Origin: Flavobacteriales bacterium
GTDB lineage: Bacteria; Bacteroidota; Bacteroidia; Flavobacteriales_F; PHOS-HE28
Assembly (NCBI GenBank): GCA_020848295.1
Contig: JADLAI010000122.1
Coordinates: forward strand, 1 to 40,984
Direction of reading: 5' to 3'
DNA length: 40,984 nucleotides
The number at the start of each line of letters is the position of its first letter. Position 1 is the stretch's first letter. Below the pieces are notes generated by a model. The model saw nothing but the letters and a program-made list of their open reading frames with translations, ran no database searches and was not told the DNA's origin. This document shows, one piece after another, positions 5,424 to 35,933 of this stretch. A program made the position numbers and the translations under genes.

Positions 5424-6764
5424 ATGCGTAGCATCCTCATCCTTGGTGCGGGCCGTTCGGCCGCTTCGCTGATCCAGTACCTGATCAAGCACGCAGCGGC
5501 GCAGGCATGGCGCATCACGGTGGCCGATAAGGACCCCTCCCACGCGGCGATGTTGGTGGCCGAGGGGCCGTCCGTGGCCACCGGGTTCGCGTTGGATGCC
5601 ACCGACGCCGGGGCACGTGCCGCACTGATCGCCAAACATGATGTGGTGATCAGCATGCTGCCGGCGTTCATGCACCTGGACGTGCTCAAGGACTGCCTTT
5701 CGCTGAAGAAACACGTGATCACACCGAGCTACGTGCCGGATGCCTTGTGGCCCATGGACGCTGACTTCAAGGCGGCGGGGCTCACGGTGCTGAACGAGAT
5801 GGGTTTGGATCCGGGTATCGACCACATGAGCGCCATGCGGATCCTGGACCGCATCCGGGCCGAAGGAGGACGGATGGAGGCTTTCGAGAGCTACTGCGGT
5901 GGGCTGGTGGCTCCGGAGAGCGATGATAATCCCTGGGGCTACAAGTTCAGTTGGAATCCGCGGAACGTGGTGCTGGCGGGCCAGGGTGGCGCGGCGAAAT
6001 ACATCCGCGACGGGGAGACGAAGTACATCCCCTACCACCAGTTGTTCAGGCAGACCGTTCGGGTGGAGGTGGAGGGCTTCGGTGCATTCGACGGTTACGC
6101 CAATCGGGACTCGTTGAAGTACCGTTCGCACTACGGGTTGGATGAGATCCCCACCCTGTTGCGCGGCACCTTGCGCAAGGCGGGGTATTGTGAGGCCTGG
6201 AACACGTTCGTCCAACTCGGCTGCACGGAGGATGGCTTCGCCATGGAACTGCCGGAGAAAGCGAGCTGGAGCGCCTACCTGGATGCCTTTCTGCCCCATT
6301 GCCAGGAGTGCGGCACCCGGGGCAACCTGGCCCGGTACCTCGGCTTGAAGGAGGATGGTGAGGTGATGCGCAAACTGGACTGGCTCGGCCTCTTCTCCAA
6401 CAGCCCGATCGGTGTGACGGGGAAGTCGCCTGCCGCTACCCTGCAACACCTGCTCGAACAGAAGTGGAAACTGGGCGTGAACGACAAGGACATGGTGGTG
6501 ATGTGGCACCGGTTCCGGTATGCGGTGGAAGGTCAGCACCAGGCCATCCATGCCTCGCTGGGCGTGATCGGCGAGGACCGGTTGCACACGGCCATGGCCC
6601 GCACGGTGGGATTACCCATCGCCATGGCCTGCAAGCACCTGCTGAACGGCACGATCCAGGAACGCGGGGTGCTTCTGCCCTTGAAACCGGTGATCTACGG
6701 GCCGATCCTGGAGGAGCTTGAACAGCACGGTATACGGTTCACGGAGGAGGAGGTGGAGGCATAA
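5424..6764 (+). CDS. Saccharopine dehydrogenase family protein
   Basis: The start at 5424 begins MRSILILGAGRSA, a Rossmann dinucleotide-binding motif at residues 4-13; the longer open frame upstream is not protein-like. The product is 446 residues. The N-terminal domain (about 1-130) has DATD and VVISMLPAFMHLDV, and the following NEMGLDPGIDHMSA segment is typical of the saccharopine dehydrogenase / reductase (LYS9) family, which acts on saccharopine or related imino acids with NAD(P). The C-terminal domain carries the substrate region (SYCGGLVAPESDDNPWGYKF). It is monocistronic, divergent from the envelope operon. A role in lysine breakdown is likely, but the exact substrate cannot be read from the sequence. 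Confidence 0.85.
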   Translation: MRSILILGAGRSAASLIQYLIKHAAAQAWRITVADKDPSHAAMLVAEGPSVATGFALDATDAGARAALIAKHDVVISMLPAFMHLDVLKDCLSLKKHVITPSYVPDALWPMDADFKAAGLTVLNEMGLDPGIDHMSAMRILDRIRAEGGRMEAFESYCGGLVAPESDDNPWGYKFSWNPRNVVLAGQGGAAKYIRDGETKYIPYHQLFRQTVRVEVEGFGAFDGYANRDSLKYRSHYGLDEIPTLLRGTLRKAGYCEAWNTFVQLGCTEDGFAMELPEKASWSAYLDAFLPHCQECGTRGNLARYLGLKEDGEVMRKLDWLGLFSNSPIGVTGKSPAATLQHLLEQKWKLGVNDKDMVVMWHRFRYAVEGQHQAIHASLGVIGEDRLHTAMARTVGLPIAMACKHLLNGTIQERGVLLPLKPVIYGPILEELEQHGIRFTEEEVEA

Positions 6765-6885: not shown

Positions 6886-7053
6886 TAATACCATTTACGC
6901 ATTCAAGGTCGGCCAAGAGATGCGCCGCGATCTTTTCAGAGGACGATACGCGGAACAGGTTGCGTAGCGGGGCCTACGGAACCTCTTCCGCGGAGAAGTC
7001 ATCCGGAAAGAGGGCAAGCAGATCGGCCGATATTGAATGCGTAGATGGTATAA
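6886..7053 (-). repeat. 168-bp palindromic repeat, family 1, copy B
   Basis: This is the inverted counterpart of copy A (525-692): same length, about 15 differences over 168 bases by eye, including the central CTACGCAACCTG stem. It sits between the convergent ends of the saccharopine dehydrogenase and trmN6 genes. The flank GTGCGG-N-TGTAATACC is shared with copy A. The rest of the 357-base gap (6765-6885 and 7054-7121) holds only a weak AGAAC-GAG-GTTCT stem near 7099 and no gene I can see. Confidence 0.85.
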
Positions 7054-7121
7054 AAGGGAGCCGTGCCCGAGGGTCGGCGCGAAGCGACGATCCCGCGAGA
7101 ACGAGGTTCTTCGAGGTGCGC

Positions 7122-7832
7122 TTATAGGTTCAACATCAGGTCGCTGATCATCCCACGGTATTCAGGCGTGTAGTCGAACGGCCCTGTGGCCTCGACCGTG
7201 AGTTCCTCTTCCTTCACTTCCCCTCCGGTCCTATCGAGTTCAAGCAGTACCCGTTTCGCGGGGCGGTGGGCAACGTATCTCACCACACACCGGCGGATCG
7301 GGAACAGCGACCTGTGCCCGGCTTCCGCGATGAAGGCTTTTTCCCGGTTCATCGGGATGATCAACGCGAAGCGCCCATGAGGTGCCAACAGTCGGCCCAC
7401 AGCCGCTGTCAGTTCATCGAACAGGAGTTCATCGCTGTGCTTGGCAAGGCCCATGCGCTCATCCGCAGCGGTGGAATAGCCCGCGTAGTAGGGCGGATTG
7501 CAGATGATGAGATCGAAGGGCTCGCTGGCGTTCATGCGGCGCACGTCCATGCGATGAACACGTACACGAACGGACCACGGACTGGCGGCGGCGTTCTCGG
7601 CGGCCTGCTCCGCTGCGGCATCGTCGATCTCCACCGCATCCACCGTGGCCCGCGGTGCGCGTTGCGCGGCGATCAAGGCAAGGACACCGGTCCCCGTTCC
7701 GATGTCGAGGATGCGTTGGGCACCGCCGTAGTTCACCCAGGCTCCGAACAGCACGCCATCGGTGCCCACCTTCAGGGCGCATCGGTCCTGCCGGATGGTG
7801 AACTGCTTGAAACGGAAGGAGGGTTTGGGCAT
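7122..7832 (-). CDS. trmN6: tRNA1(Val) adenine-37 N6-methyltransferase (TrmN6-like)
   Basis: The 236-residue protein is a class I SAM-dependent methyltransferase. Motif I ILDIGTGTGVLAL is at 41-53, the acidic ribose-binding VEID at 67-70, and the N6-adenine catalytic motif NPPY at 112-115. The N-terminal FRFKQFTIRQDRCALKVGTDGVL matches TrmN6 (YfiC), which methylates A37 of tRNA1(Val); I quote only parts of it: FKQFTIRQDRCALKVGTDG. It starts 5 bases after the rimM stop, so both are in one operon. Other NPPY methyltransferases are possible, but the N-terminus makes TrmN6 the best fit. Confidence 0.88.
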   Translation of the reverse strand: MPKPSFRFKQFTIRQDRCALKVGTDGVLFGAWVNYGGAQRILDIGTGTGVLALIAAQRAPRATVDAVEIDDAAAEQAAENAAASPWSVRVRVHRMDVRRMNASEPFDLIICNPPYYAGYSTAADERMGLAKHSDELLFDELTAAVGRLLAPHGRFALIIPMNREKAFIAEAGHRSLFPIRRCVVRYVAHRPAKRVLLELDRTGGEVKEEELTVEATGPFDYTPEYRGMISDLMLNL

Positions 7833-8797: not shown

Positions 8798-9445
8798 TCA
8801 GGCCAGTTCCTTCTTCGCGAGGTAGAAATCGACGAGTTCGATGTTCTTCTCCTCAAGTCGGGCATCGAGTTCCTTGAGGGTCTTGGGCGGTGGCACGATC
8901 ACCTTCTCCCCTTTCTTCCAGTTCAGTGGCATGGCGCAGCCGTTGGCATCGGCGGTCTGCATGGCTTCGAGCACGCGCATGATCTCGTCCATGTTGCGGC
9001 CCACATTGAGCGGGTAGTACATGATCAAGCGGATGATGCCCTTGGGGTCGATGAAGAAAACGGCACGCACGGAAGCCGTGCTGCTGGCGTTGTCGTGCAG
9101 CATGCCGTAGAGTCGGGCCACCTTCATGTCGATGTCGGCGATGATGGGGAAATCCATGTACACACCGGTCTTCTCGCGCACGGCCTGTACCCATGCCACG
9201 TGGCTATGGATGCTATCGATGCTCTCGCCGATCAGCTTGGTGTTGCGCTTGGCGAACCACTCCTTCTGCTGTGCGAAGCCGCTGAGCTCGGTGGTGCAAA
9301 CCGGGGTGAAATCGGCCGGATGGCTGAAGAGAATGGCCCAGCTTCCTTTGATGTATTCGCTGAACTTCAGCGGGCCATGTGTGGTGATCGCATCGAAATC
9401 GGGGGCCTGATCGCCGATGCGCGGCATGGGATTCGTGGTTTCCAT
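8798..9445 (-). CDS. Prx6-type peroxiredoxin
   Basis: The 215-residue protein has the peroxidatic motif DFTPVCTTE with Cys50, the Prx6-type C-terminal extension (RVLEAMQTADANGCAMPLNW) and a second cysteine, Cys170. It reduces peroxides with a thiol donor in the cytoplasm. The family is often called 1-Cys, but Cys170 could act as a resolving residue. Two starts are possible: ATG 9445, which lies almost at the predicted transcription start and would give a leaderless message, or ATG 9427 (MPRIGDQAPDF), closer to the family start. It is divergent from the thioredoxin/rhodanese operon and shares its operator, which fits a joint peroxide/thiol-stress response. Confidence 0.92.
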   Translation of the reverse strand: METTNPMPRIGDQAPDFDAITTHGPLKFSEYIKGSWAILFSHPADFTPVCTTELSGFAQQKEWFAKRNTKLIGESIDSIHSHVAWVQAVREKTGVYMDFPIIADIDMKVARLYGMLHDNASSTASVRAVFFIDPKGIIRLIMYYPLNVGRNMDEIMRVLEAMQTADANGCAMPLNWKKGEKVIVPPPKTLKELDARLEEKNIELVDFYLAKKELA

Positions 9446-9449
9446 GGCA

Positions 9450-9457
9450 CAAAGGTC
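9450..9457 (-). promoter_or_regulatory. -7 box of the peroxiredoxin gene
   Basis: GACCTTTG on the minus strand (consensus TAnnTTTG) ends 4 bases before the ATG at 9445. No TTG is present at the usual -33 distance; the dyad at 9479-9492 is centred about 40 bases upstream of the expected start, where an activator would sit. Confidence 0.5.
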
Positions 9458-9478
9458 GGGTCAGGAGCGGTGAGGCCG

Positions 9479-9492
9479 GTGACGATCGTCAC
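9479..9492. promoter_or_regulatory. Crp/Fnr-type operator dyad 1
   Basis: GTGACGATCGTCAC is a perfect 14-base palindrome with the Crp-type layout TGA-N6-TCA. Its 12-base core TGACGATCGTCA differs in a single base from the dyad at 12041-12054. It is centred about 40 bases from the predicted peroxiredoxin start and about 70 from that of the rightward operon, both normal activator distances. The regulator is most likely the Crp/Fnr protein encoded at 11363-11986. Confidence 0.6.
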
Positions 9493-9542
9493 GGAAGCGG
9501 TGTTCGGTGACCTTCCTCACGTTACACCACACGACAACGACC

Positions 9543-9550
9543 GACCTTTG
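9543..9550 (+). promoter_or_regulatory. -7 box of the thioredoxin/rhodanese operon
   Basis: GACCTTTG, the same box as on the opposite strand at 9450-9457, lies 22 bases before the ATG at 9573. No TTG at -33. Confidence 0.45.
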
Positions 9551-9572
9551 CGAGCAAGAAACCCACCACCAC

Positions 9573-9773
9573 ATGAAACCGAACATGGGTCGGACCGACC
9601 GGATCCTGCGGATCATCGCTGCCCTCGCCATCGGCGTCCTCTACTTCACCGGTGTCCTGAACGGGGCAGTGGGCATCGTGCTATTGGTGCTGGCCTTGGT
9701 ATTCGTGCTCACCAGCTTCGTGAGCTTCTGTCCGCTGTACACGCTCTTCGGTATCCGCACACGGAAAGCCTGA
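9573..9773 (+). CDS. DUF2892 (YgaP-like) small membrane protein
   Basis: The 66-codon gene encodes a short membrane protein starting MKPNMGRTDRILRIIAAL; the frame is open upstream, but only from this ATG does the sequence fit the family. Two hydrophobic helices (about 11-31 and 33-50) are followed by SFCPLYTLFGI, the standard ending of DUF2892 proteins, which are often fused to or beside rhodaneses (YgaP). It opens a six-gene sulfur/thiol operon, with the next gene one base after its stop. The membrane cysteine and the context suggest handling of sulfane sulfur, but no reaction is established. Confidence 0.82.
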   Translation: MKPNMGRTDRILRIIAALAIGVLYFTGVLNGAVGIVLLVLALVFVLTSFVSFCPLYTLFGIRTRKA

Positions 9774-23113: not shown

Positions 23114-23911
23114 ATGTTCGACAAGGATATCCTCTGCGCCACCGACCTCTCGCCCACCTCGGACGATGCCGTTCGTGCGGCCGATGCCATCGCCATCCGG
23201 CTATCCAAGCGCACCACCTTGCTCCATGTCCTTGAAAAAGGGGAACGGAGTGACGAGGGGCGTGAACAGGTATTGGCCTTGATGAACGCGCAATCCGGAA
23301 AGGCCGGCGCAACGGAACGCACCACCAATAAATTGCGGGATGGAGACCCCCTGAAGGCCATCGCCGAGGAATCGAAACAGGGCCACTCCCTCCTTGTGCT
23401 TTGCACCCACGGGGGCAAGGGGCTCCGCCAGCATCTCTTCGGGACGGACATCCTGAAGCTGGTCCGGCACGCCGCCACTCCTTCCATCGTGGTGCAGGAA
23501 GGGGTCCGGATCGAGGGGCTGCTCAAGCGGATCGTGATGCCCGTGGCCGCACATGCCGATATAGACCGCTTGCTCGATGCCGTGATCTCACTTGCCCGCA
23601 GCTTCGATGCCGATGTGCATGTGTACCAACTCGTGCGTCCCGGCGAAGCGCCCTCCCCAGAGCTCTTGGCCAATAAGGCCAAGATGCTCCACCGGTTGAG
23701 CCAGGAGGGGATCCGGCACCAGGATGTGATCGAACCGAGCACCGCTTTCAGCATTGGTTTCGCACAGGCTACGATCGGGTATGCGGAAAAGACCGGGGCC
23801 GGCGCGCTCGCCATCATGGCCCACGCCTCCGACGAGTACCGCTACATTGCCGACGCGGAAAAGGAACGGATCCTTTCGAACGCCCCGCGGATCCCTGTGT
23901 TGTGCGCCTGA
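23114..23911 (+). CDS. Tandem universal stress protein (UspA family)
   Basis: The 265-residue protein has two UspA-like domains. The first (1-130) has DILCATDLSPTSDDAVRAAD and the end VLCTHGGKGLRQHLFGTDIL then ATPSIVVQ; the second (135-265) has RIVMPVAAHADIDRLLDAV and ends PRIPVLCA. Tandem Usp proteins bind ATP or act as stress-linked regulators in the cytoplasm; the ATP-loop G-x2-G-x9-G(S/T) is only partly kept in domain 1, so ATP binding is uncertain. It sits after the transhydrogenase/Rnk genes under its own promoter. Confidence 0.85.
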   Translation: MFDKDILCATDLSPTSDDAVRAADAIAIRLSKRTTLLHVLEKGERSDEGREQVLALMNAQSGKAGATERTTNKLRDGDPLKAIAEESKQGHSLLVLCTHGGKGLRQHLFGTDILKLVRHAATPSIVVQEGVRIEGLLKRIVMPVAAHADIDRLLDAVISLARSFDADVHVYQLVRPGEAPSPELLANKAKMLHRLSQEGIRHQDVIEPSTAFSIGFAQATIGYAEKTGAGALAIMAHASDEYRYIADAEKERILSNAPRIPVLCA

Positions 23912-23973
23912 TCGGGCTTGCTGGTCAACCTCTTACGGCCCGTTCGGCCCACCCCGGACCAGGCGAGGAACCA

Positions 23974-23981
23974 TACCTTTG
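23974..23981 (+). promoter_or_regulatory. -7 box of the T9SS-exported repeat protein gene
   Basis: TACCTTTG, identical to the box before the E1 gene, lies 34 bases before the ATG at 24016. No TTG at -33. Confidence 0.5.
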
Positions 23982-24015
23982 CAGTCGGCCTTTCTTACGG
24001 CCTGCCTTCGGCCAC

Positions 24016-26781
24016 ATGCTTCCTTTCCGCCATGCCTTTGTCTGTGGCCTCCTCTTGGTCGCAGGCGTCTCGTTCGGCCAATTCGGGCCTGGGCAGACCG
24101 TTATGGCCAACATCTTGGACCCGGAGGTACGTGCTGCCGACGTCGACATGGACGGGGACCTCGATGTGATCGGCATCTTCGGAGGTGACCACCTGAAGTG
24201 GTTGCCCAATACCGATGGCCAAGGCACATTCGGTGCATACAACCTGCTGTTGGACCTGGATGGGGATTGCGGCCTCTTCGAGGTCGCCGATGTGGATGGG
24301 GATGGTGACCCGGACGTCCTCCTCGTCGACGAGGAGGACACCCTGCATGTACTAAGGAACCTCGGTGACGGAACCTTCCTGCAGGACATCCCCATCGTCC
24401 TGCCCGTCCCGGCCGAGGCCCTGGCGATCGCCGATGTGACCGGTGATGGCTTCACCGACCTGGTCCTGAGCCTCGACTTCCCGGAAGGCGCCGGCATCGG
24501 CATCCTATCCGGAACGGCGGAAGGTCTCGGCGGTCTTACGAACCACCCCGCGATCCATAGCGGTGCCGCATCCGAGTGCCTAAGGATCGGCGATGTGGAC
24601 CTGCTTGGTGGCCTCGACCTTGTCCTCACTGCGGCCAATGACAGCCTTGTTGTGGCACGGAACGTGGCCGGAGATGGTACCGAATGGGTGGTTGAGCACT
24701 TGTCCATTCTAACCGGTGACTTGAGCTATCCATATCACAGACCGCAGTTAATGGACATTGACGCCGATGGGGATCTTGACCTCGGTGAAGCACGCGGTAG
24801 TGCGGTACACTGGCTGCGTAACGTCCTTGATGAGGGTGGAGTGCTCGCCTTCGAGGAACAGGTGATCGCACCTTGGACGACCAGTGGTAACGGCGTGTTC
24901 GGCCGGTCGACCTGCGGGACTGGTGCCAGCATGGTGTATGTACCGAACAACCCCGTGCTCCCGGTGCAGTGGAACACCTACGTACACTTGCTCAATGGAT
25001 TCCCGGAAAGCCATGCCATCATGGATGTACCTCGCGGAAGTGGACTGTTGCTCGCCGATCTCGATGGGGATGATCGTGAGGACCTCTTGCTCCAAGAGGG
25101 GAACGCGTTGCGCTGGTATGCCAATGAACTCGACACAACGGGTGCCGAACTCGAACTCCCACTGCTCGATACACTGTGCCTGTCCGGGGCACCGGTCGCC
25201 TTGCCCACCGTGGAACCAGCCGGTGGCCAATGGTATGGTCACCAGGTTTTCAACGGGATGCTCTATCGTGCCAACTTATTGATGACCACCGATCTCCAGG
25301 TCGTACATGCGGTATTCCCCGAAGGGAATTGCCCGCTCGCGGCCACTACGAATGTCCGCGTGATCCAAGGTCCGGAGATCACGACCACCGTACCACCGGT
25401 GATCTGCTCTGCGGACGCCCCCATCGTGATGAACGCGGTGCCTACCGACGTGACCTGGTATGGTCTGGATGGTGCGAGCGTGATCGACCCTGCGACCTGG
25501 GGTGGCGGATATGTGGTGTGTGAATACACCGATGGTACAGGCCAGATGTGCTCCGACCTCGAAGGGCCGATCATGCGTTGGAACACGCTACCTGCCGAAC
25601 TGGAGGAACTGCCACTGCTCTGCCCAACGGATCCGACCGCCACCATTGAGGTGATCGCCGCACCGCCACTCAATGTGTATTGGGAAGGACCTGTGCTCGC
25701 GCCCACGGCCACAAGCGCTTTGTTCGATCCAGGGATCGGGCCCGGCACCTATACCGTGGTCCTGAACGTGGAGGCATCGGGTCCCAACCAATGTCGCAAC
25801 AGCGATACCATACAGGTCGTGGTGGGCGAACTACCCGAGATCATGTTCCAGCCAATGGCCGTGTATTGTGCCGAAGGAGGCAGCATCTCTCTTTCTGGTG
25901 CGTCGCCCTCCGGAGGGACCTGGAGCGGCACCGGTGTGGACCTTGGCCTGCTGGACCCGACCGTGGTGGGTGCGGGTATGCACCTGCTCAACTACTTCGC
26001 CGTTTCGGCCGATGGGTGTGCGGCACAAGCTTCCACCACCATCACACTGGCCTCGGCTACCGAAGTGGACCACGCTGCGACCGACCTCCTGTTCTGCGAG
26101 GGTGATGATCCCATCCAATTCACGGCCTGGCCTGCTGGTGGCAGTTGGAGCAACCCAGTGGATGCGACCGGTTCACTTGATCCGGAGCAGCTGGACCCAG
26201 GCGCCTATCCGGTCACGTACACGTACACCGACCCACAAGGATGTTCATTGACCAACGACACCCTGGTGGTCACCAAGGGTGTGCCCCAGGAGGTGTCCAT
26301 CGATCCCGTACCCCGGCTGTGCCTGAGTACACCGGCCTTCGAGTTGAGCGGCTCGGCCAGCGGGACATGGAGCGGTGCAGTTACTGGTGAAGGTGCTCAG
26401 GTGTTGATCGATCCGGCGGCGCTCGGTGTCGGGACCTGGCCGGTCACACTTTCCGTAGCTCCCTTGGATGAATGTCCGGGTGAAGCGACCATCGAACTCG
26501 TGATCGATGTGTGTACCGGAATGGCCGGGATAGCGGCTACCGGGCTGGTCGCGATGCCACAACCCTTCTCGGATCGAACAACGGTGCGTTTCGGGGACCT
26601 TCATGTCCAACGCTTGGACGTGTTCGATGCCACAGGGAAGCGTGTATATGGCTGGGAACTGCGGAACGATCGTATATCACAGGTCGAGGTGGACCTGCAA
26701 GGCCTGCCGGATGGCATGTATCTCCTGATGGCCAGCACAACGGATGGCATGGCCCGCCTTCCGCTGGTGAAAGCACATTGA
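24016..26781 (+). CDS. T9SS-exported protein with VCBS/FG-GAP repeats
   Basis: I start at 24016 because a Sec signal follows (MLPFRHAFVCGLLLVAGVSF) and a promoter precedes. The product is 921 residues. Residues about 35-370 carry VCBS/FG-GAP repeats with calcium-binding loops (DVDMDGDLD, DVDGDGDPD, DVTGDGFTD, DIDADGDLD, DLDGDDRED). Residues about 375-830 form beta-rich PKD-like domains with recurring Gly-Trp-Ser motifs (SPSGGTWSGTG, PAGGSWSNPV, ASGTWSGAVT). The last about 75 residues (VAMPQPFSDRTTVRFG ... DGMYLLMAS) are a type A T9SS sorting domain. It is therefore an outer-surface or secreted protein, perhaps binding a polymer. No enzyme motif. It converges on parC with a 19-base gap. Confidence 0.9.
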   Translation: MLPFRHAFVCGLLLVAGVSFGQFGPGQTVMANILDPEVRAADVDMDGDLDVIGIFGGDHLKWLPNTDGQGTFGAYNLLLDLDGDCGLFEVADVDGDGDPDVLLVDEEDTLHVLRNLGDGTFLQDIPIVLPVPAEALAIADVTGDGFTDLVLSLDFPEGAGIGILSGTAEGLGGLTNHPAIHSGAASECLRIGDVDLLGGLDLVLTAANDSLVVARNVAGDGTEWVVEHLSILTGDLSYPYHRPQLMDIDADGDLDLGEARGSAVHWLRNVLDEGGVLAFEEQVIAPWTTSGNGVFGRSTCGTGASMVYVPNNPVLPVQWNTYVHLLNGFPESHAIMDVPRGSGLLLADLDGDDREDLLLQEGNALRWYANELDTTGAELELPLLDTLCLSGAPVALPTVEPAGGQWYGHQVFNGMLYRANLLMTTDLQVVHAVFPEGNCPLAATTNVRVIQGPEITTTVPPVICSADAPIVMNAVPTDVTWYGLDGASVIDPATWGGGYVVCEYTDGTGQMCSDLEGPIMRWNTLPAELEELPLLCPTDPTATIEVIAAPPLNVYWEGPVLAPTATSALFDPGIGPGTYTVVLNVEASGPNQCRNSDTIQVVVGELPEIMFQPMAVYCAEGGSISLSGASPSGGTWSGTGVDLGLLDPTVVGAGMHLLNYFAVSADGCAAQASTTITLASATEVDHAATDLLFCEGDDPIQFTAWPAGGSWSNPVDATGSLDPEQLDPGAYPVTYTYTDPQGCSLTNDTLVVTKGVPQEVSIDPVPRLCLSTPAFELSGSASGTWSGAVTGEGAQVLIDPAALGVGTWPVTLSVAPLDECPGEATIELVIDVCTGMAGIAATGLVAMPQPFSDRTTVRFGDLHVQRLDVFDATGKRVYGWELRNDRISQVEVDLQGLPDGMYLLMASTTDGMARLPLVKAH

Positions 26782-26800: not shown

Positions 26801-29539
26801 TCAGTCCAGGCCAAGCTTGATCTGCCGTCCCGGACTCTTCCCGATCAAGGGATCCTCCGGATGGCGTTCCTGCTCCTCGATCTGTTGTGCCTGTGTCCGT
26901 TTCACACGGGACATGGGGCTCTCCTCCAGATCCTCCTCTTCCGGAGCATCCAGGTTCCCCACCTCCTCGTCGCTGATCAGCATGCGTTGCCGTTCCTCCA
27001 ACTCGGGTGTCATCGCGATGAAGACATCTCCCAACAAAGTGAGTTCCTTCACCTTGCCGGTCGTGAGCCGGTTCCCCAGTGCCTTCACCCCCTTCACCGC
27101 GATGAACTCTTCCATGTCGACCTCCTCATCGGGCCGATCGGTGCTGCGTTTGTCGTAGGTGATGCGCACACGGGCATGTGGCAACAGACTGTGTAGGGCG
27201 AGTTTGCTGTTCGGGTGATCCGTGATGAAGCTCACCGGGTCCTTGGCCGGCTCGATGCTGAACCGTTTCATCTGGTACTGCTCCTTCTCCCCGTCCCAAT
27301 ACACGGCGCTCACCGTCGCCTTCGGATCCCATTTCACCACGGTCTCCGCATCGTCCGGAAAGTGCGTACTGAGCGTGAAGGGGAACAACTGGTAGCTGCC
27401 GCTACGGGTGATCACCAGAATACGGTCCTCACCAGCGAAACGCCCCATGTAGCGACCATGTCCGGTATCGTTCAAACGCCTTACGGTCTCGTCGAACCAG
27501 ATCGGGATGGCTCCCAGTGTACTGCCACCGCGCTCTTTCTGCACCACCTTCTGGATCATGTAGCGGGTAAGTAGGTTGCCCTTGCTGCTCCTGCCCTTCA
27601 CGCCCAATTGCGCGAAGTCCACATCGAACTTGGTCTTCCGCAGGTTCGGCCTCGGACGCAGGCTCACCTGCACCACCTCCGCTGCACCATCCGCATTGGC
27701 CGTGAAGTATTCCACCGTGCTACCGGCCACACCGTTGGTCAGGTCATATTCTTTGTCGCGCGTGATCCCGGTGACAGCGAACCGCTTCATGAAGAAGGGT
27801 CCTTTCGTTCCATCCTGGTAGATCATGTGGTAGATCGTACGCTCATCGTTCTTCTTGAACACATCGACGTGGATCACGCCCTTGCCGATGAATTTCTTGT
27901 CCGCCACCTTGGTCACCATCATGGTACCACTGCGACGGAATACGATGATGTCGTCGAGCTCCGAACATTCGGTGACGAGTTCGTTGTTGCGAAGGCTCCA
28001 GCCCATGAAGCCCTCCTCCCGATCGAGGTAAAGTTTCTTGTTCGCCACGGCGACCTTGGTGGCCACGATCGTATCGAACGGACGTATCTCGGTCCGGCGC
28101 TCACGACCCGCGCCATACTTCTTCTTCAGTTCCTTGAAGTGCTCCACCGCGTGGTCCACCAGGTTGGCCAGCTTGCGCTTCACCTCGGCCAATTGCTCCT
28201 CAAGCTGCTTGATGTGCTCATCGGCCTTGAAGCTGTCGTATTTCGAGATGCGTTTGATCCGGATCTCGGTGAGGCGCACGATGTCCTCCTCGGTCACCGG
28301 TCGTTTCAGTTCCTGCACATGTGGCTTCAAGCCCTTATCGATGAAGGCGATCACCTGCTCCCAGCTCTCGGCCTCCTCGATCCTGCGGTACACCTTCTTC
28401 TCGATGAAGATGCGCTCCAGCGAGGCGAAATGCCATTGCTCATCGAGTTCCTTCTGCTTGATCCGCAGTTCGAGTTCGAGCAGGCGCACCGTGTTGTCCG
28501 TGCTGATCCGCAGCAATTCGTTCACGCCGACGAAGCGGGGCCTGTCGTCCTCGATCACCACCGCGTTGGGTGCGATGCTCACCTCGCAGTCGGTGAAGGC
28601 GAACAGCGCATCGATGGTATTGTCCGGGGATACTCCGCTGGCCAGGTGGATGAGGATCTCGGCATGCTCGGCAGTGTTGTCCTCGATGTGCCGCACCTTG
28701 ATCTTCCCCTTCTCGTTGGCCTTCACGATGCTCTCGATGAGCGAGGCCGTGGTGGTGCCATTGGGGATCTCGGTGATCACCAGGGTCTTGTTATCCTCCT
28801 TGCGGATGCGTGCCCTGCACCGGATGCGGCCGCCGCGCTCCCCCTGGTTGTAATTGCTCACATCCACCAACCCCGCCGTGGGGAAATCGGGATGCAACTC
28901 GAATGATCGTTTGCGCAGGACGGCGATGCTCGCGTCGATCAGTTCATTGAAATTGTGCGGCAGCACCTTGCAACTGAGGCCTACCGCGATGCCCTCGCCG
29001 CCCTGTGCCAGGAGCAATGGGAACTTCACCGGCAGGAAGACAGGCTCCTTGTTGCGACCGTCGTAGCTCAACTGCCATTCAGTGGTCTTCGGGTTGAAGA
29101 CGACATCAAGCGCGAACTTGCTCAGGCGGGCCTCGATGTATCGTGGTGCGGCGGCGCTATCCCCCGTCAACGTGTTGCCCCAGTTCCCCTGGCAATCGAT
29201 CAGCAGGTCCTTCTGGCCCAACTGCACCAGCGCATCGCCGATGCTCGCATCGCCATGCGGGTGATACTGCATGGTGTGGCCGATGATGTTCGCCACCTTG
29301 TTATAGCGCCCGTCATCGAGGTCTTTCATACTGTGCAGGATGCGACGCTGCACGGGTTTCAACCCATCGTACAGGGCCGGTACGGCCCGCTCCAGGATCA
29401 CATAGCTCGCGTAGTCCAGGAACCAATCCCGATACATTCCGCTCACACTGAAGGTCCCGCTGCCTTTCGCCGTGGGCACTCCCTTTCCGGTCGCTCCTGC
29501 CTCTTCGGGCAATTCATTCATCTCGTTCTCGTCGTTCAT
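26801..29539 (-). CDS. parC: DNA topoisomerase IV subunit A
   Basis: The 912-residue protein is a type IIA topoisomerase A subunit. The breakage-reunion domain has YASYVILERAVPALYDGLKP, HTMQYHPHGDASIGDALVQL (93-106) and the catalytic Tyr134 in APRYIEARL; C-terminal strands from about 550 form the beta-pinwheel region with GKGVIHVDVF and KRFSIEPAK. It decatenates daughter chromosomes with ParE. Ala98 sits where GyrA Ser83 would be, and Asp102 at Asp87; I take this as a family feature. The C-terminus is Glu-rich and unstructured. It is the last gene of the parE operon, starting 6 bases after the lipoprotein gene. Confidence 0.95.
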   Translation of the reverse strand: MNDENEMNELPEEAGATGKGVPTAKGSGTFSVSGMYRDWFLDYASYVILERAVPALYDGLKPVQRRILHSMKDLDDGRYNKVANIIGHTMQYHPHGDASIGDALVQLGQKDLLIDCQGNWGNTLTGDSAAAPRYIEARLSKFALDVVFNPKTTEWQLSYDGRNKEPVFLPVKFPLLLAQGGEGIAVGLSCKVLPHNFNELIDASIAVLRKRSFELHPDFPTAGLVDVSNYNQGERGGRIRCRARIRKEDNKTLVITEIPNGTTTASLIESIVKANEKGKIKVRHIEDNTAEHAEILIHLASGVSPDNTIDALFAFTDCEVSIAPNAVVIEDDRPRFVGVNELLRISTDNTVRLLELELRIKQKELDEQWHFASLERIFIEKKVYRRIEEAESWEQVIAFIDKGLKPHVQELKRPVTEEDIVRLTEIRIKRISKYDSFKADEHIKQLEEQLAEVKRKLANLVDHAVEHFKELKKKYGAGRERRTEIRPFDTIVATKVAVANKKLYLDREEGFMGWSLRNNELVTECSELDDIIVFRRSGTMMVTKVADKKFIGKGVIHVDVFKKNDERTIYHMIYQDGTKGPFFMKRFAVTGITRDKEYDLTNGVAGSTVEYFTANADGAAEVVQVSLRPRPNLRKTKFDVDFAQLGVKGRSSKGNLLTRYMIQKVVQKERGGSTLGAIPIWFDETVRRLNDTGHGRYMGRFAGEDRILVITRSGSYQLFPFTLSTHFPDDAETVVKWDPKATVSAVYWDGEKEQYQMKRFSIEPAKDPVSFITDHPNSKLALHSLLPHARVRITYDKRSTDRPDEEVDMEEFIAVKGVKALGNRLTTGKVKELTLLGDVFIAMTPELEERQRMLISDEEVGNLDAPEEEDLEESPMSRVKRTQAQQIEEQERHPEDPLIGKSPGRQIKLGLD

Positions 29540-29545
29540 CGTCGA

Positions 29546-29950
29546 TCAAAGGGTCGCTGTCGCACATACGGTGTTCTTCGCACCATGGCCGCCACCGTTG
29601 GCCAGTTGGATGGTGTGGCAATAGGTCTGCCCCAAGGTGGCCTCTTCCCGCGTGATGGTGAATTGGCCCTGCACCACCGGTGTAGCGATGGGCGATAGAT
29701 CCACGAACACTTGGAATTCCGCACCAGAAGGCATCAGATCGGTACGCACTCGCACATCCTGCTCATGTCTGTAATGCTCCACTCCATCCTCGGTGTAAGC
29801 GATCGTGCGGTGTTGGATCATCTCGAACACCGGGGTTCCGGCATAGGCTGGATCGAACGGATTGGTGGTCAATGTGGATACATCCACCACCTCCTTGCCA
29901 CAGCCGAGCAGCAGGAGACCAAATGCGAGGATCCAGAGGTGGGACTTCAT
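29546..29950 (-). CDS. Small lipoprotein between parE and parC
   Basis: The start at 29950 gives a lipoprotein signal MKSHLWILAFGLLLLGCGKE with Cys17. The mature part (about 115 residues) is beta-rich (FEMIQHRTIAYTEDGVEHY, EFQVFVDLSPIATPVV, GQFTITREEATLGQTY) and ends in a Cys-containing tail. No family recognised. The ATG overlaps the stop of the preceding gene (ATGA) and its stop is 6 bases before the parC start, so it belongs firmly to the topoisomerase IV operon. Its position is odd because neighbours are cytoplasmic DNA enzymes. Confidence 0.78.
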   Translation of the reverse strand: MKSHLWILAFGLLLLGCGKEVVDVSTLTTNPFDPAYAGTPVFEMIQHRTIAYTEDGVEHYRHEQDVRVRTDLMPSGAEFQVFVDLSPIATPVVQGQFTITREEATLGQTYCHTIQLANGGGHGAKNTVCATATL

Positions 29951-30660
29951 CGTTGTATGGGGATGGTGAAGCCGGCCGCCCAATACGCACCATTCCGATC
30001 GGGCACCCAGGTGAGGCCTTCGAACCGGATCCGTTCCTTGTCCTCAAAACGTGGTTGCTCCATGCCACTGGTACGGATCCTGGTGTACACCATGTAACCA
30101 ACGCTTGCCATCGTGAAGATCGAACCGGCGACCAGACTGGTCCGGGCCCTGCGCAATGCTGCATTGTGATCGGGGATCACCTCTTCCTTGATCCGATTGA
30201 TGACTCCAGGGTCATCGCTGCTGTGGTAGGCGGCCACCGCCTCGTCCAGGTCGTCGCCCACCGTGTTGTACCGACCGTAGGACAGGCCGGTCCAGGCCAG
30301 GCCCATACCAACCAGGACCGGTGTCCACACCCGTGCACGGCGTGCGCTCTGGTAGGCACTGAGGTCGTTGCGGTAAGTTGCGTACTCCGTGCTGAATGGC
30401 AGCTTGACCACCAGGTCTCCGGTGCGGTCGGCCACGACGAAGACGTTCGTATCGAGGACGATGCGTTCGGGAGCCCAGATGGAGAAGTGGTGCAGACCCT
30501 CGCTCAATCGCACCTCGCGCTGCTGCATCCGGTATTTGTGGTCAAGGACGAATTCGAAGTTGTGTCCCGGATCCACAAGCAACCGAAGGGTGCCTGCACG
30601 TTGGCCACTGGCAAGGGTGGTGGCCATGATCGCGAACAGGAATGCCGTCAGGTCGCGCAT
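29947..30660 (-). CDS. Exported protein of unknown function in the parE-parC operon
   Basis: The 237-residue protein has an N-terminal signal (MRDLTAFLFAIMATTLASG). Residues about 22-90 (GTLRLLVDPGHNFEFVLDHK, HHFSIWAPERIVLDTNVFVV) look like a PEGA-type beta domain; two hydrophobic stretches follow (VWTPVLVGMGLAWTGLSY at 111-128 and SLVAGSIFTMASVGYMVY at 175-192) separated by a polar helix. No known family name. It begins 2 bases after the parE stop and overlaps the lipoprotein gene, so the four genes form one transcript. It may be an envelope protein with a partner in the small lipoprotein. Confidence 0.75.
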   Translation of the reverse strand: MRDLTAFLFAIMATTLASGQRAGTLRLLVDPGHNFEFVLDHKYRMQQREVRLSEGLHHFSIWAPERIVLDTNVFVVADRTGDLVVKLPFSTEYATYRNDLSAYQSARRARVWTPVLVGMGLAWTGLSYGRYNTVGDDLDEAVAAYHSSDDPGVINRIKEEVIPDHNAALRRARTSLVAGSIFTMASVGYMVYTRIRTSGMEQPRFEDKERIRFEGLTWVPDRNGAYWAAGFTIPIQR

Positions 30661-30662
30661 GG

Positions 30663-32591
30663 TCAGGCGTCGAGTTCCACTTCGTTGGCCTCCAGTTTGC
30701 GGGCGATGGCCTGCACCGCACCCTCCAGCGCCGCCTTCTCCCCAGCCTCGGCCACAAGGTCCTTCTCCACTCGAAGGTTCTCGATGATGAAGCCCTGCCG
30801 GTCCGGGGTGTTCTTGCCCATGTAGAAGCTGAGCAGATCATGGACCACCGCGTCCTTGGTGATCATCACCGGCTCAAGGCGCATGTCCTCCCCGATGAAA
30901 TTCCTGAATTCATCGGGACTGATCTCGCCCAGTCCTTTGAACCGGGTGATCTCGGCGGTCTTCCCCAGCTTGAGGATGGCCCGCTGCCGTTCCTCGTCGC
31001 TGTAGCAGTAGATCGTCTCCTTCTTGTTGCGCACCCGGAAGAGCGGGGTCTGTAGGATGTACAGGTGATCGTTCTTCACGAGGTCCGGGAAGAACTGCAG
31101 GAAGAAGGTCATGAGCAGCAAGCGGATGTGCATGCCGTCCACATCGGCATCGGTGGCGATGACGATCCGATTGTACCGAAGCCCCTCCATGCCGTCCTCG
31201 ATGTTGAGGGCTGCCTGCACCAGGTTGAACTCCTCGTTCTCGTACACGACCTTCTTGGTGAGGCCGTAGCAGTTCAGTGGTTTGCCCTTCAGACTGAAGA
31301 CGGCTTGCAGGTTCACATCCCGGCTCTTGGTGATGCTGCCGCTCGCGCTATCCCCTTCGGTGATGAAGAGTGTCGTGTGTTCCTTGCGATCGTCCTTCTT
31401 GGGGTCGTTGAGGTGGATGCGGCAATCGCGCAACTTGCGGTTGTGCAGGCTGGCCTTCTTGGCGCGTTCTCGGGCCAACTTGCGGATCCCGCTCAGTTCC
31501 TTGCGCTCCCGTTCATTGCTGAGGATGCGCTGTTGCAACACCTCGGCGATCTCCGGGTTCTTGTGCAGGAAGTTGTCCAGTTCACGTCCGATGAAGTCCC
31601 CCACGAAGGAGCGCATGCTCTGCCCGCCCGGTTCGATCTCCAGGGATCCGAGCTTGGTCTTGGTCTGGCTCTCGAACACCGGTTCGATCACCTTGACACT
31701 CACCGCAGCCACGATCCCGGTGCGTACATCGCCCGCTTCCCAATCCTTCTTGTAGAAGTCCTTGACCGTCTTGGCCACTGCCTCACGGAAGGCGCCTTGG
31801 TGTGTACCGCCCTGGGTGGTGTGCTGGCCGTTCACGAAGCTGTAATACTCCTCGCCGTAATGGTTCGCGTGGGTGATCGCCACTTCGATGTCGTCCCCTC
31901 GCAGGTGGATGATCGGGTACATCGGTTCCCCGTCCATCTTCGTGGTGAGCAGATCGAGGAGCCCGTTCTTGCTTTGGAACTTCTGGCCGTTGTACTGGAT
32001 GGTGAGCCCCGTGTTCAGGTAGCAGTAGTTCCAGAGCAAGCGCTCAATGTGCTGATCCCGGAACTGGTAGTTGTGGAACATCTGGCCGTCCGGTTCGAAG
32101 ACCACCCGGGTGCCATTGGGTTCTTGGGTCTTCGCCAACTTGTTGTCCTTGCGCAGCACCCCGCGATCGAACTCGGCGACCTTCATCTCCCCGTCCCGCA
32201 CGCTCTCGATCCGGAAATAGTTGCTCAATGCGTTCACCGCCTTGGTACCCACACCGTTCAGGCCCACGCTCTTCTTGAAGGCCTTGCTGTCGTACTTGGC
32301 GCCTGTATTGATCTTGCTCACCACATCGATCACCTTGCCCAACGGTACTCCCCGTCCGTAGTCGCGGATCTCCACCCGTGGGCCTTCGATCACCACATCG
32401 ATCCGCTTGCCGTGGCCCATCACGAACTCGTCGATGCAGTTATCCAGCACTTCCTTCAGCAGGATATAGATGCCGTCGTCGTAGCTGCTGCCATCGCCCA
32501 GCTTACCGATGTACATGCCTGGCCGTAGCCGGATGTGTTCCTTCCAGTCGAGGGACCGGATATTGTCCTCGTTATATGCCGCTTCGCTCAT
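30663..32591 (-). CDS. parE: DNA topoisomerase IV subunit B
   Basis: The 642-residue protein has the GHKL ATPase domain ([25 protein letters not shown] with catalytic Glu47 and Asn51, [22 protein letters not shown]), the transducer and the TOPRIM domain with [11 protein letters not shown] and the [17 protein letters not shown] metal-binding acid residues. The C-terminus has [13 protein letters not shown]. With ParC it decatenates chromosomes. It heads a minus-strand operon, with a TACCTTCG box 49 bases upstream of its start. The short length fits Bacteroidota ParE rather than GyrB with an insert. Confidence 0.95.
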
Positions 32592-32722: not shown

Positions 32723-35695
32723 TCACGGCATCTGTTCCTGCACGGTGTTCGTCGGCACGGCGCCACCGATGGTGTTCAGGATCACATCCCGATCGTTCGC
32801 GGTACCACTATACTTCACCACCCCGTCCAGGTTCACATCCTCCTTCATGTAGCCCGCTATGGTATTGGTGGGGACCGATCCGCCGATCACGAAGAGCACC
32901 GCGTCCCGATCATTGTCCGAACCGGTGTACATGATCTCATCATCCACCACGGCGTTGCCTGCCCAGAGCAGCGAAACGCCACCCCGGTCGCGCATGGCCT
33001 GGGTGCCGTAGGTGGTGGCGGTGGCGAAAGCGAATGTCGCAGGCAATGGACCGAGGCCCAATGCCGAACCCGACATGCAACCTAAGTGGTTCCGGTGCCG
33101 CACTGCGATCCGGTAGGAGCCTTGTGGTGCGCAGAAGCCGATGAATTCACCTCCGTTCGGCGTGCGCAGACCGCCATCCCGCCGCAACAGGGCCACTTTG
33201 GTATCCACCACCGAGAATGGCGAAGAGGCTTGTCGCAACTCCAGCAGTACCCAATCCACGATGGCTCCTGGGCCGGCCACATCCAAGAGGGCCTGGGTGG
33301 TGGTGGTGGCACCGGTCACCGGGTATCCCATGGCCGAATAAGGTTCCTGCAAGGGGATCAGCCCCTGCGTCCGTAACGAATCGTGCATGAGCCCGGTCGC
33401 CGTATCGTAAGGCCCATCCAGGCTGACCGACAACGCGCAGGTGGCCGCCACCGGAGTGGTACACAAGTAGGGCAATGTGGTGAAGGAGGTCCCTGTGTAT
33501 TCCGAACTGCCACCTTGCGATCCCGGTGGATCACAGACCGCGCGCACTTGCACCTCGTAGGTGGTCTCCGGTATCAGCCCGGTCAGTACCCGAGGGGGCG
33601 CTGTGATGCCGAACACATCCACCCAAGTGGGCTGTGCCGCTGGCTTGTATCGCAGATCGTATGACGCCGCTCCTTGCACCACAGGCCACGAGATGCTCGC
33701 GCTCTGGTAGGTGATCGCACTTACCGACACGCCATCAGGCACCCCACATCCGATCGCGTATGCGCTCATCTCCAGCATGTAGCACCGCAGCGCATCGAAA
33801 GCGCCGTTGTACCCGTAGACCTGTACGATGTAATCTCCTGCCGCTGCGCTCGCGTAACTGATGTTCTCGGGCTGTGTACCGCCATTGAAGGAGGATGCCA
33901 ACACGGCGCCGCCGGACGTGAGGAGCTGAAGGTCGTAGTCGTACGGTAGATTCGCCAGATAGAGGTTGATCGTGGAGGTGGACGCGATCGTGAACCGGTA
34001 GTGATCCACATCCCCGTTCGTTGCGATCAATGCGCTCACCGTACCCGGAATACCCACCGTTGCTGCGGTGGCCCATGTGCCGTTCGGCTCAAGAACATCG
34101 GGGCACGGGACCGCCGTGGTGAACGTGCGTGTCGTGCTGTACGGTGAAGAAGTTCCGCCGCACACGCTCCTGACCTGGAATTCGTAGTTGGTGCCTTGGG
34201 TGAGCCCGCTTAGGCTGTATGTGTTCCCGACCACACCGAGCACATCAGTCCAGGTGGGCGCACCGACCTGGCGCCAACGCAGGTCGAAGGTCGCCACGCC
34301 CACCGCGCTCCATGACAGGGTTGCCGTGGTGACGCCGATGTTGATCGCGGTCAAGGTGCCGGGCGCATCGCAGGTGGTGCCACAGGCCGTGAGGCAGCTG
34401 GCGTTGTTCACCGCGTTCACGATCACGGCCGTGGGCTGCGGTCCGAAGCCATTGGCCAAGTTGATGCCCACCCCGCTCACCAGATGGCAATAGCTCATGA
34501 TGGTACCGCCCACTCCGGTGGGAATGGGGCCGATCGGGCAGGACCCTTCGCTATACCCGCTGTTCGCCGTGGGGCCGCACCCGTCGATATTGGTCCCGTT
34601 CCCATTCCACCAGCAGGCGTGGGTATGGGGCGATCCCAGGTTGTGGCCCGCCTCGTGGGTCACCACCATGGTGCTCCAGCTGTAGGTGGGCACGTTGTTG
34701 TATGAACTGCCGATCCCGCTGTATGCCATGCGGTAACTGGCCAAGCCGTTGCATAACGTGTTCAACCACGCGACACCACCACCACCACCGTAGCCGATCA
34801 GGTGGGCCATGTCGCCATTGAAGCTGGTCCGGGTCACACCGAATTGATCCAGGTAGTCCCCGCTGCCTGGTCCCGAATACGGGCTGGGTACATCCCAGAT
34901 GAAGAGTTCGGAAAGGGTGATGTCGATCCCATCGTTGTCGAAGAGTATCGCGCTCTGATTGAACAGACCGGTGATGTAGTTGGTGGTGTTGGCCACCGTC
35001 CCCTTGTCCTGGAATACATTGTAGTTCACTTCCCAGTAATAGCGCACACAGCGCACCGTGCGATCACCGGCCGCCAGCGTGATCTGGTCGTTATGGAAGG
35101 CCCCTTCCACTTCTTGCGCACCACAAACGAAGTCGGGGCTACCACGAAGATCACGATCCCGATAGATCACATGGCGCCCCCGCCGATCGCCCTTGAGCGG
35201 GCCCACCACGATCTGGCCCTGGCCATCATTGATCAACAGCATCACCTCCTGCTCGAACACGCTCAAGGCCACCCATGAACCCGGCAACCCGCGCACCATG
35301 CCCCGATAGTGGACACCCGGAAGGCCGACGGTCCGCGATCCGCTTGCCAACACCACGTTCACCGCTTCTTCAGCGATCTCGGTGCGGGCAAGGTCCAAGG
35401 ACAAGGTACCTCCCTCGAAAGGGATGGATAACGAAAGGTGTTCCGCTCGCAGACGAAGCACTGCTCCCAGCGCAGCAGGATCCACTTGCAGGACCTCGCC
35501 TTTAGTGAGTGCCGCATCCAGCAAGGACCGCGCTTCTTCTTTCATGCCATCCGGTCTGAACAGACCGACCTCCTTGAAGACAACACCCTTGGTCCGCAGG
35601 GCTTGGATCCGATCGGCTACCTGACCGGTGCGGGCCAGTGCAGGGAAGGACAAGGTGAACAGCAGGACGAGGGGAAGGGCGCGGAGAATTCTCAT
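32723..35695 (-). CDS. Secreted reprolysin-like metalloprotease with FN3 domains
   Basis: The start at 35695 gives a Sec signal (MRILRALPLVLLFTLSFPALA). The 990-residue protein has a propeptide-like region (about 25-210), then a zinc metalloprotease domain with HEAGHNLGSPHTH (His347, His351, His357; HExxHxxGxxH of M12B-type) and the Met-turn GTIMSYCH. After it come FN3-like domains (SWSAVGVATFDLRWRQVG; SWPVVQGAASYDLRYK), a PPC-like domain (DHYRFTIASTSTINLYL) between them, and a C-terminal pair of repeats YTGSDNDRDAVLFVIGGS and YSGTANDRDVILNTIGGA, each ending PTNT. No canonical T9SS type A tail. It is likely exported to the surface or medium. Upstream lies a repeat-rich spacer. Confidence 0.9.
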   Translation of the reverse strand: MRILRALPLVLLFTLSFPALARTGQVADRIQALRTKGVVFKEVGLFRPDGMKEEARSLLDAALTKGEVLQVDPAALGAVLRLRAEHLSLSIPFEGGTLSLDLARTEIAEEAVNVVLASGSRTVGLPGVHYRGMVRGLPGSWVALSVFEQEVMLLINDGQGQIVVGPLKGDRRGRHVIYRDRDLRGSPDFVCGAQEVEGAFHNDQITLAAGDRTVRCVRYYWEVNYNVFQDKGTVANTTNYITGLFNQSAILFDNDGIDITLSELFIWDVPSPYSGPGSGDYLDQFGVTRTSFNGDMAHLIGYGGGGGVAWLNTLCNGLASYRMAYSGIGSSYNNVPTYSWSTMVVTHEAGHNLGSPHTHACWWNGNGTNIDGCGPTANSGYSEGSCPIGPIPTGVGGTIMSYCHLVSGVGINLANGFGPQPTAVIVNAVNNASCLTACGTTCDAPGTLTAINIGVTTATLSWSAVGVATFDLRWRQVGAPTWTDVLGVVGNTYSLSGLTQGTNYEFQVRSVCGGTSSPYSTTRTFTTAVPCPDVLEPNGTWATAATVGIPGTVSALIATNGDVDHYRFTIASTSTINLYLANLPYDYDLQLLTSGGAVLASSFNGGTQPENISYASAAAGDYIVQVYGYNGAFDALRCYMLEMSAYAIGCGVPDGVSVSAITYQSASISWPVVQGAASYDLRYKPAAQPTWVDVFGITAPPRVLTGLIPETTYEVQVRAVCDPPGSQGGSSEYTGTSFTTLPYLCTTPVAATCALSVSLDGPYDTATGLMHDSLRTQGLIPLQEPYSAMGYPVTGATTTTQALLDVAGPGAIVDWVLLELRQASSPFSVVDTKVALLRRDGGLRTPNGGEFIGFCAPQGSYRIAVRHRNHLGCMSGSALGLGPLPATFAFATATTYGTQAMRDRGGVSLLWAGNAVVDDEIMYTGSDNDRDAVLFVIGGSVPTNTIAGYMKEDVNLDGVVKYSGTANDRDVILNTIGGAVPTNTVQEQMP

Positions 35696-35933
35696 GGCGG
35701 TGTGTGGGTATGGTTGATCACTGCCAATGGCAGCAGGAGGTCGGCAAGGATGGGATCCAGGTCGATCGAATGACCGGACCATCAAAACAACGGAGGTGCG
35801 ATCGATCGGAGCGGGATCGAGGGTAAATTTTCAAAACTTATCGACGAATTTGGTAATATCATCGACAAATGGCGAAACCGATCTACTCCACGAGGACGAA
35901 ATGATGCTACTGTTCGGTGGAGATGAAGCGGTC
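35696..35933. other. AT-richer leader/spacer upstream of the metalloprotease gene
   Basis: Together with the hairpin repeat this makes a 377-base gap. It holds a possible minus-strand -7 box TTGTTTTG near 35784, a small stem CTGCC-AAT-GGCAG near 35727 and an AT-rich block (35822-35873) with a near direct repeat ATCGACGAATTTGG / ATCGACAAATGG. No gene seen on either strand. Confidence 0.4.

Follow-up and report, generated by a model that had tools for sequence, protein, structure and literature searches.

Two genes of a Flavobacteriales bacterium, here termed gene A and gene B, which lie between the topoisomerase genes parE and parC, appear to form an undescribed two-protein envelope module of Bacteroidota that is kept behind parE by inheritance and uses parE transcription, a reading to which we assign a probability of about 0.6. 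The basis for proposing a module is that A and B are neighbours almost wherever A has been read, that their overlap is kept in most of the genus, that they are duplicated jointly, and that their sequences co-change. The window, that is, the whole stretch of DNA analysed, comprises 40,984 nucleotides (GenBank assembly GCA_020848295.1, contig JADLAI010000122.1). The four genes are encoded on its minus strand with spacings of +2 nt for parE-A, −4 nt for A-B (ATGA) and +6 nt for B-parC, corresponding exactly to the 2 bases, 4-base overlap and 6 bases of the original prediction (Table 1). The start of gene B is an ATG within a longer TTG ORF. The cluster is flanked (window 32723-35785, minus strand, and 23902-26781, plus strand) by genes for a reprolysin-like metalloprotease that contains FN3 domains and for an FG-GAP protein whose T9SS sorting tail is weak and scores below cut-off.

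Table 1. Coordinates (window positions) of the genes of the parE-A-B-parC locus and of features within them.
Feature	Position	Strand	Description
parE	30663..32591	-	type IIA topoisomerase B subunit, topoisomerase IV type
Gene A	29947..30660	-	237 aa; signal peptide, putative transthyretin/PEGA-like beta domain, helical hairpin, C-terminal beta hairpin
Signal peptide of A	30601..30660	-	residues 1-20; genus alignments, cleavage site judged by eye
Putative transthyretin/PEGA-like beta sandwich of A	30400..30597	-	about residues 22-87; AlphaFold model, Foldseek
Helical hairpin of A	30070..30390	-	residues 91-197; AlphaFold model, hydropathy
Overlap of A stop and B start	29947..29950	-	4 nt, ATGA
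Gene B	29546..29950	-	134 aa lipoprotein; putative Ig/FN3-like domain
parC	26801..29539	-	type IIA topoisomerase A subunit

The parC product passes NF009397 (gyrase/topoisomerase IV subunit A) with 1354.5 bits against a cut-off of 780, and the parE product scores below all curated NCBIfam cut-offs shown (best 407 vs. 740; TIGR01055, 310.1 vs. 723.35; TIGR01059, 375.1 vs. 882.4). A separate GyrB is encoded on contig C20 of the same genome (TIGR01059, 958.2; cut-off 882.4). Because GyrB is encoded elsewhere and parE is paired with parC, topoisomerase IV is a fair name, and it is reasonable to regard parE-parC as topoisomerase IV.

Searches at family level and at order level yielded an identical set of 45 genomes from a single genus. 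A is carried by 39 of the 45, always adjoining parE in the same orientation, as judged by manual comparison of coordinates; A of G019 is divided between two contigs. The assemblies of the six genomes without A do not hold the parE 3' end: parE is cut early in G001 and G026, G007, G009 and G027 show a GyrB-level match only, and G036 shows none. Wherever a genus genome includes the parE 3' end, A lies behind parE (39 of 39). An insertion unique to one genome, an outcome that the original prediction had named as fatal to it, is rejected by these counts. Likewise, the conservation, the spacing and the dN/dS of a close genome pair reject the possibility that A and B are chance ORFs.

The genus loci named individually number 37, from 36 genomes (one genome contributes two contigs, L067 and L068), and are MAGs titled mostly 'Flavobacteriales bacterium'. 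The order in these loci is parE-A-B-parC as far as each contig extends, with B behind A in 36 of 37 (L067 ends at the contig edge) and parC in 32 of 37 (L058, L065 and L067 end too early; L045 and L061 hold about 1.1 and 0.7 kb 3' of B, without parC). Of 36 genus relatives, 28 have an A-B overlap of exactly −4, whereas the parE-A spacing ranges from −4 to 695 nt over 35 loci (L053 and L068 (no parE) are left out, and gaps of 1064 nt in L053 and 1062 nt in L064 are an artefact of the choice of alignment piece), and does not stay as tight as it is in the window. Since the A-B overlap is kept while the parE-A spacing varies, we conclude that the tight unit is A-B.

Three of these loci carry peculiarities. 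In L052, 873 nt with other genes lie between A and B; a PIN-domain protein is encoded between A and B, and a ParE-toxin-family protein, which is unrelated to topoisomerase ParE and has a small ORF upstream, is encoded between B and parC (6945-7463 and 9029-9582). L054 has, between B and parC, frames similar to the toxin-antitoxin-like genes of L052 (7459-8047; Pfam assignments of these genes cover the two L052 proteins only), and has a widened parE-A gap with repeated sequence corresponding to a repeated peptide in a minus-strand frame (5463-5977). L049 (CAMCAZ010000016.1), from a MAG titled Chryseobacterium gleum, carries the cluster with genus-type A and B, and the title looks wrong.

Elsewhere in the class, the space behind parE is filled differently. 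A strong parE is present in 107 of 119 class genomes, five of them of the genus, and stretches behind parE were read for 80 of the other 102 (L117 and L157 under 400 nt, four others under 4 kb); neither A nor B was detected in the 80 stretches by tblastn or by profile. parC lies behind parE in 50 of the stretches; 31 of these gaps measure at most 119 nt, and the other 19 measure 235-3061 nt. The wide gap is a point of likeness to the genus locus, but the genes within it are unrelated: most wide gaps hold other ORFs, for example cupin-like, HIT-like and GDSL-like ones (named by eye). In family f5, the gap holds a large exported MORN-like-repeat protein with TonB_C (L122 107-1822, G092; L158 137-2026, G048; the MORN/TonB_C assignment by Pfam is for L122 only). 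In L121 (159-1097, G049), a small ORF resembling a Y1/IS200-type transposase, identified by eye, lies between parE and parC beside repeat-like short frames.

The AlphaFold model of A (single chain; pLDDT 90.4, above 90 across the beta-sandwich strands, which lie between residues 22 and 86) begins with a signal peptide, followed by a beta sandwich, a helical hairpin of 107 residues and a short beta hairpin that is poorly modelled. Gln20 is invariant across the genus alignments, and the signal peptide is probably cut just ahead of it, as judged from the alignments by eye. In Foldseek searches with the beta sandwich, carboxypeptidase N heads the matches (E 1.9e-3), the others being weaker and covering about 80 columns, among them rhamnogalacturonan lyase, teneurin, and pilin beta domains; a second structure comparison of the model covered mainly the hairpin. 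Pfam and NCBIfam searches with A returned no match at E<=1, and a comparison of the A profile with solved structures gave weak, unconvincing matches (best E 0.011). PEGA (PF08308) was matched by 3 of 26 relatives of A at E<=0.1 (best 0.00096), with the relative in L194 reaching 17.6 bits against a gathering score of 20.8. The first inserted protein had been described as an exported protein with a PEGA-like region; export is predicted from a signal peptide read by eye, and the PEGA likeness is faint. What A appears to share with PEGA and with transthyretin-like folds (carboxypeptidase regulatory-like) is an exported N-terminal beta sandwich; unlike these, A continues into a long hydrophobic hairpin, is encoded beside a lipoprotein partner gene, and has no Pfam match.

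The hairpin of A contains two moderately hydrophobic 19-mers, residues 111-129 and 174-192, with Kyte-Doolittle means of 1.33 and 1.47 over 26 sequences and positively charged outer flanks. These hydrophobic stretches speak against a soluble coiled coil; the positive flanks are at odds with what the positive-inside rule predicts when the beta domain is exported. A membrane-fusion-protein/TolC-like identity for the hairpin, suggested by structure matches at Z 9-11, was rejected, such values being usual for long helices. The C-terminal residue of A is phenylalanine in 13 of 18 proteins outside the genus and mostly arginine within it; many of the C-termini outside the genus show a pattern resembling an outer-membrane beta signal.

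B has the lipobox LLGC17, with the cysteine invariant in 37 of 37 genus sequences, as expected of a bacterial lipoprotein and in agreement with the prediction that the second inserted gene encodes one; Cys111 and Cys129 are further invariant cysteines. The AlphaFold model of B (single chain; pLDDT 90.9) appears Ig/FN3-like when compared with solved structures (best Z 7.0, rmsd 3.0, 91 residues aligned), with many Ig/FN3 matches within 1 of the best Z. Pfam and NCBIfam searches returned no match for B at E<=1, and its profile gave weak, unconvincing matches to solved structures (best E 0.07). A motif N-x-x-D-x-x-Y-x-G is present in all 37 genus B proteins and in 12 of 34 lipoproteins encoded behind A outside the genus. 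The optimum of the Bacteroidetes surface-lipoprotein export signal is C-X-K-(D/E)2-X, with K at +3 and acids at +4 and +5 (mBio 2016, PMC5080379), and 29 of the 37 genus B proteins resemble surface lipoproteins in having C-x-K-(D/E)2 after the lipobox. B of the window differs in reading C-G-K-E-V, with one acid and the second absent, and B proteins of family f18 differ in being mostly K-K (C-x-K-K in 9 of 10 listed). With a stricter lipoprotein finder, which recovered 30 of the 37 B proteins, the motif is found in 23 of 30 B proteins and in 1 of 13 other lipoprotein-like ORFs, several of which are perhaps not real genes.

A and B change quickly and together. Over 31 genomes of the genus, parE has a median identity of 86.7%, compared with 39.4% for A and 29.9% for B; genomes with a cut gene were left out of this identity and distance comparison. 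Distances of A and B correlate with r 0.75 and, given parE, with a partial r of 0.63 (0 of 5000 permutations; 31 genomes), values that are possibly inflated by the common genealogy of neighbours. For the closest pair, L043/L045, dN/dS is 0.07 for parE, 0.26 for A and 0.18 for B, which shows that A and B of this pair are under purifying selection. Several more distant pairs give dN/dS up to 0.9-0.98 at high synonymous distance; the other 13 pairs, with synonymous distances for A and B of about 0.9 or more (exact values among them, 0.97 for one B and 0.88 for one A), are left out as evidence on selection.

Rapid change of this kind would be expected if A and B were an outward-facing pair, for example a surface structure under pressure from phage, predators or competitors, for which location is irrelevant. 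The low identities of A and B relative to parE, the export signal on 29 of 37 B proteins, the differences in copy number and partner type between families, and the high dN/dS of distant pairs, read with their high synonymous distance in mind, are all in keeping with this explanation. However, no genus genome in which the locus is held is without the pair, the single close genome pair shows purifying selection, and A, for which no surface exposure is predicted, changes at almost the pace of B; a search of A, B and five relatives against 5027 PADLOC models gave no match at E<=0.01. We consider the explanation unlikely. The same PADLOC result led us to reject an anti-phage defence system. A toxin with a lipoprotein immunity protein was considered for the pairing and duplication and was set aside because presence of A and B is invariant in the genus.

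To follow the pair beyond the genus we used profile searches, which score few candidates per genome, such that the presence counts are lower bounds. Of 296 class genomes searched whole, 28 gave A (13 belonging to the genus); with a broader profile the figure was 43 of 396 (19 belonging to the genus). The order containing G216 yielded A in 7 of 150 genomes, two of these weakly, and a phylum-wide sample of 247 yielded 3: two partial matches and the genome of the window itself. The set analysed outside the genus comprises 30 stretches with 34 A genes from ten families (the f60 member, L260, is a weak, larger relative that is counted among the 34 and excluded from trees). For 34 of 34 of these A genes, the start of a lipoprotein gene lies no more than 80 nt from where A ends; the same strict rule holds for 14 of 313 other ORFs (>=120 aa) in the 30 stretches, and a looser rule for 24 of 313. 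By the same rule, 14 of 15 further distinct A copies from family f18 are followed by a lipoprotein gene, giving 48 of 49 scored A genes outside the genus. The one A gene that fails the rule (G588 C76 5874-6578) is directly followed by a sequence that an f18 B matches in tblastn. A broken second A with two internal stops (G168 C26 19068-19409), near an intact copy, was left out of scoring.

The pair is duplicated as a unit: tandem A-B-A-B arrangements occur in L250 (whose first A has almost no upstream sequence), L252 and L253, and two convergent pairs occur in L196. The lipoprotein can also differ. In family f5 (L204 7984-8598, L206, L208, L254-L257, L259), A is followed by a different, longer lipoprotein, as if A stayed put while its partner was exchanged; exchange to a PKD protein is shown for L204, whose partner passes Pfam PKD_4, and the cousin of this partner in L254 has no Pfam match at E<=0.01.

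These results bear on the alternative that A and B are unrelated neighbours held together only by operon convenience. Both proteins are exported, and the parE-parC gaps of other families hold assorted genes, as this alternative would allow, but it accounts poorly for a lipoprotein neighbour at 48 of 49 A genes against 14 of 313 other ORFs, for joint duplication, and for correlated A-B distances, and we regard it as highly improbable. A and B share a distribution, in the genus loci and outside them; unrelated distributions would have counted against the original prediction. With the spacings exact, and with neither uniqueness to one genome nor unrelated distribution borne out, we conclude that the arrangement is real and genus-wide. 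No relevant paper appeared among the listings of a literature search on the A-B pair or on parE-parC insertions.

The original prediction also proposed that envelope proteins cotranscribed with a decatenation enzyme might link chromosome segregation to the envelope or to division. For this we find no specific support. In eight further families, relatives of A adjoin genes other than parE. Upstream same-strand neighbours that score above NCBIfam cut-offs are tyrS, rimO, recF (L259), ornithine aminotransferase and heptose epimerase; frr (upstream, divergent) and holB (downstream, L205) also score above cut-offs, superoxide dismutase in L199 scores under them, and two neighbours have no match. 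tblastn for parE in the 30 stretches outside the genus matched only three, all from family f18.

Family f18, of an order other than the window's, is the second family in which A lies behind parE. A is present in 15 of 150 sampled f18 genomes, and in 15 of these 15 one A copy lies behind parE; extra copies away from parE are present in G588, G597 and G623. parC falls within the fetched flank in 6 of 15 (L283 and L289 end before or inside B), and in L248 and L249 it lies several kb further downstream, with other genes intervening. The single f18 A that was aligned with A of the window is 16% identical to it. In the A tree, the copies of the genus (f1) and of f18 form separate well-supported clades; a tree constrained to join f1 and f18 is 11.6 log units worse with a p-AU of 0.064, such that a joint clade is neither rejected nor favoured, and the parE tree does not resolve the families. 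(The first A tree has 41 rows and the second 48; six of the seven rows flagged as long, plus eight more, were dropped between the two, and two f18 copies occur twice in the second because L293 and L296 overlap.) By a rough estimate, for the pair to have landed twice independently behind one and the same gene, given about a dozen contexts, would be a coincidence of the order of 1-2%, which makes inheritance with later relocation elsewhere, or selection of the site, likelier than chance.

The recurrence behind parE is a ground for supposing that A and B connect the envelope or division with topoisomerase IV or chromosome segregation, and that the operon exists for that purpose. The parE-A arrangement is found in 39 of 39 genus and 15 of 15 f18 genomes as defined above, it is kept despite the 16% identity of the one aligned f18 A, it is kept in f18 even where other genes part B from parC, and replication genes adjoin the pair in two other contexts (recF upstream and holB downstream). 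Set against this, the other families read have the pair away from parE, mostly by genes without a role in segregation; f18 itself has extra copies away from parE; 353 of 396 class genomes are without A at the threshold used, though parE is present in 107 of 119; A and B have no known domain, in Pfam or NCBIfam, that reaches DNA or a divisome protein; and toxin-antitoxin-like genes entered L052 (among A, B and parC) and L054 (between B and parC) without loss of the pair. On balance, a tie of this kind seems to us quite unlikely. The recurrence of the parE link in two families nonetheless fits pure hitch-hiking less well than it fits a functional tie, unless the link was inherited. A narrower form of the idea starts from retention of the parE-linked form in two families despite about 16% A identity and despite genes between B and parC: the parE-linked pair would be a real coupling, with the amount of an envelope complex set together with that of topoisomerase IV and with A-B acting where separating nucleoids meet the constricting envelope, and the copies elsewhere would be paralogues with other duties. 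We hold this to be very doubtful.

According to the preferred reading, that of an envelope module inherited behind parE, A would be exported, with its beta domain in the periplasm and its helical hairpin inserted in the membrane, and B would be its partner, held in the outer membrane by a lipid anchor and, for most of the genus, probably exposed at the cell surface. A and B, each modelled here as a single chain, would act as one envelope complex, in which the lipoprotein part may be exchanged, being of the Ig-like type in the genus and a PKD-domain protein in at least one f5 member. The pair would lie behind parE because an ancestor put it there, would be read from the transcript of a constantly expressed gene, likewise perhaps behind tyrS, rimO and recF elsewhere, and would itself have no part in decatenation. 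In IgaA-RcsF, PBP1b-LpoB and Tol-Pal, a membrane protein with a periplasmic domain is paired with a lipoprotein, as would be the case for A and B. A point of difference is the shortness of B, in which about 20 residues precede the domain, probably too few to span the periplasm; a surface-exposed B and an inner-membrane A, if so placed, would have no obvious direct contact.

The relatives outside the parE operon suggest that the A-B pair stands alone functionally, and they carry a caution, namely that an exported protein encoded in a housekeeping operon may not share the function of that operon. The pair is invariant in the genus, occurs in about ten families, is almost always linked to a lipoprotein gene, and has no Pfam or NCBIfam name, which makes it a good target for naming and for knock-out.
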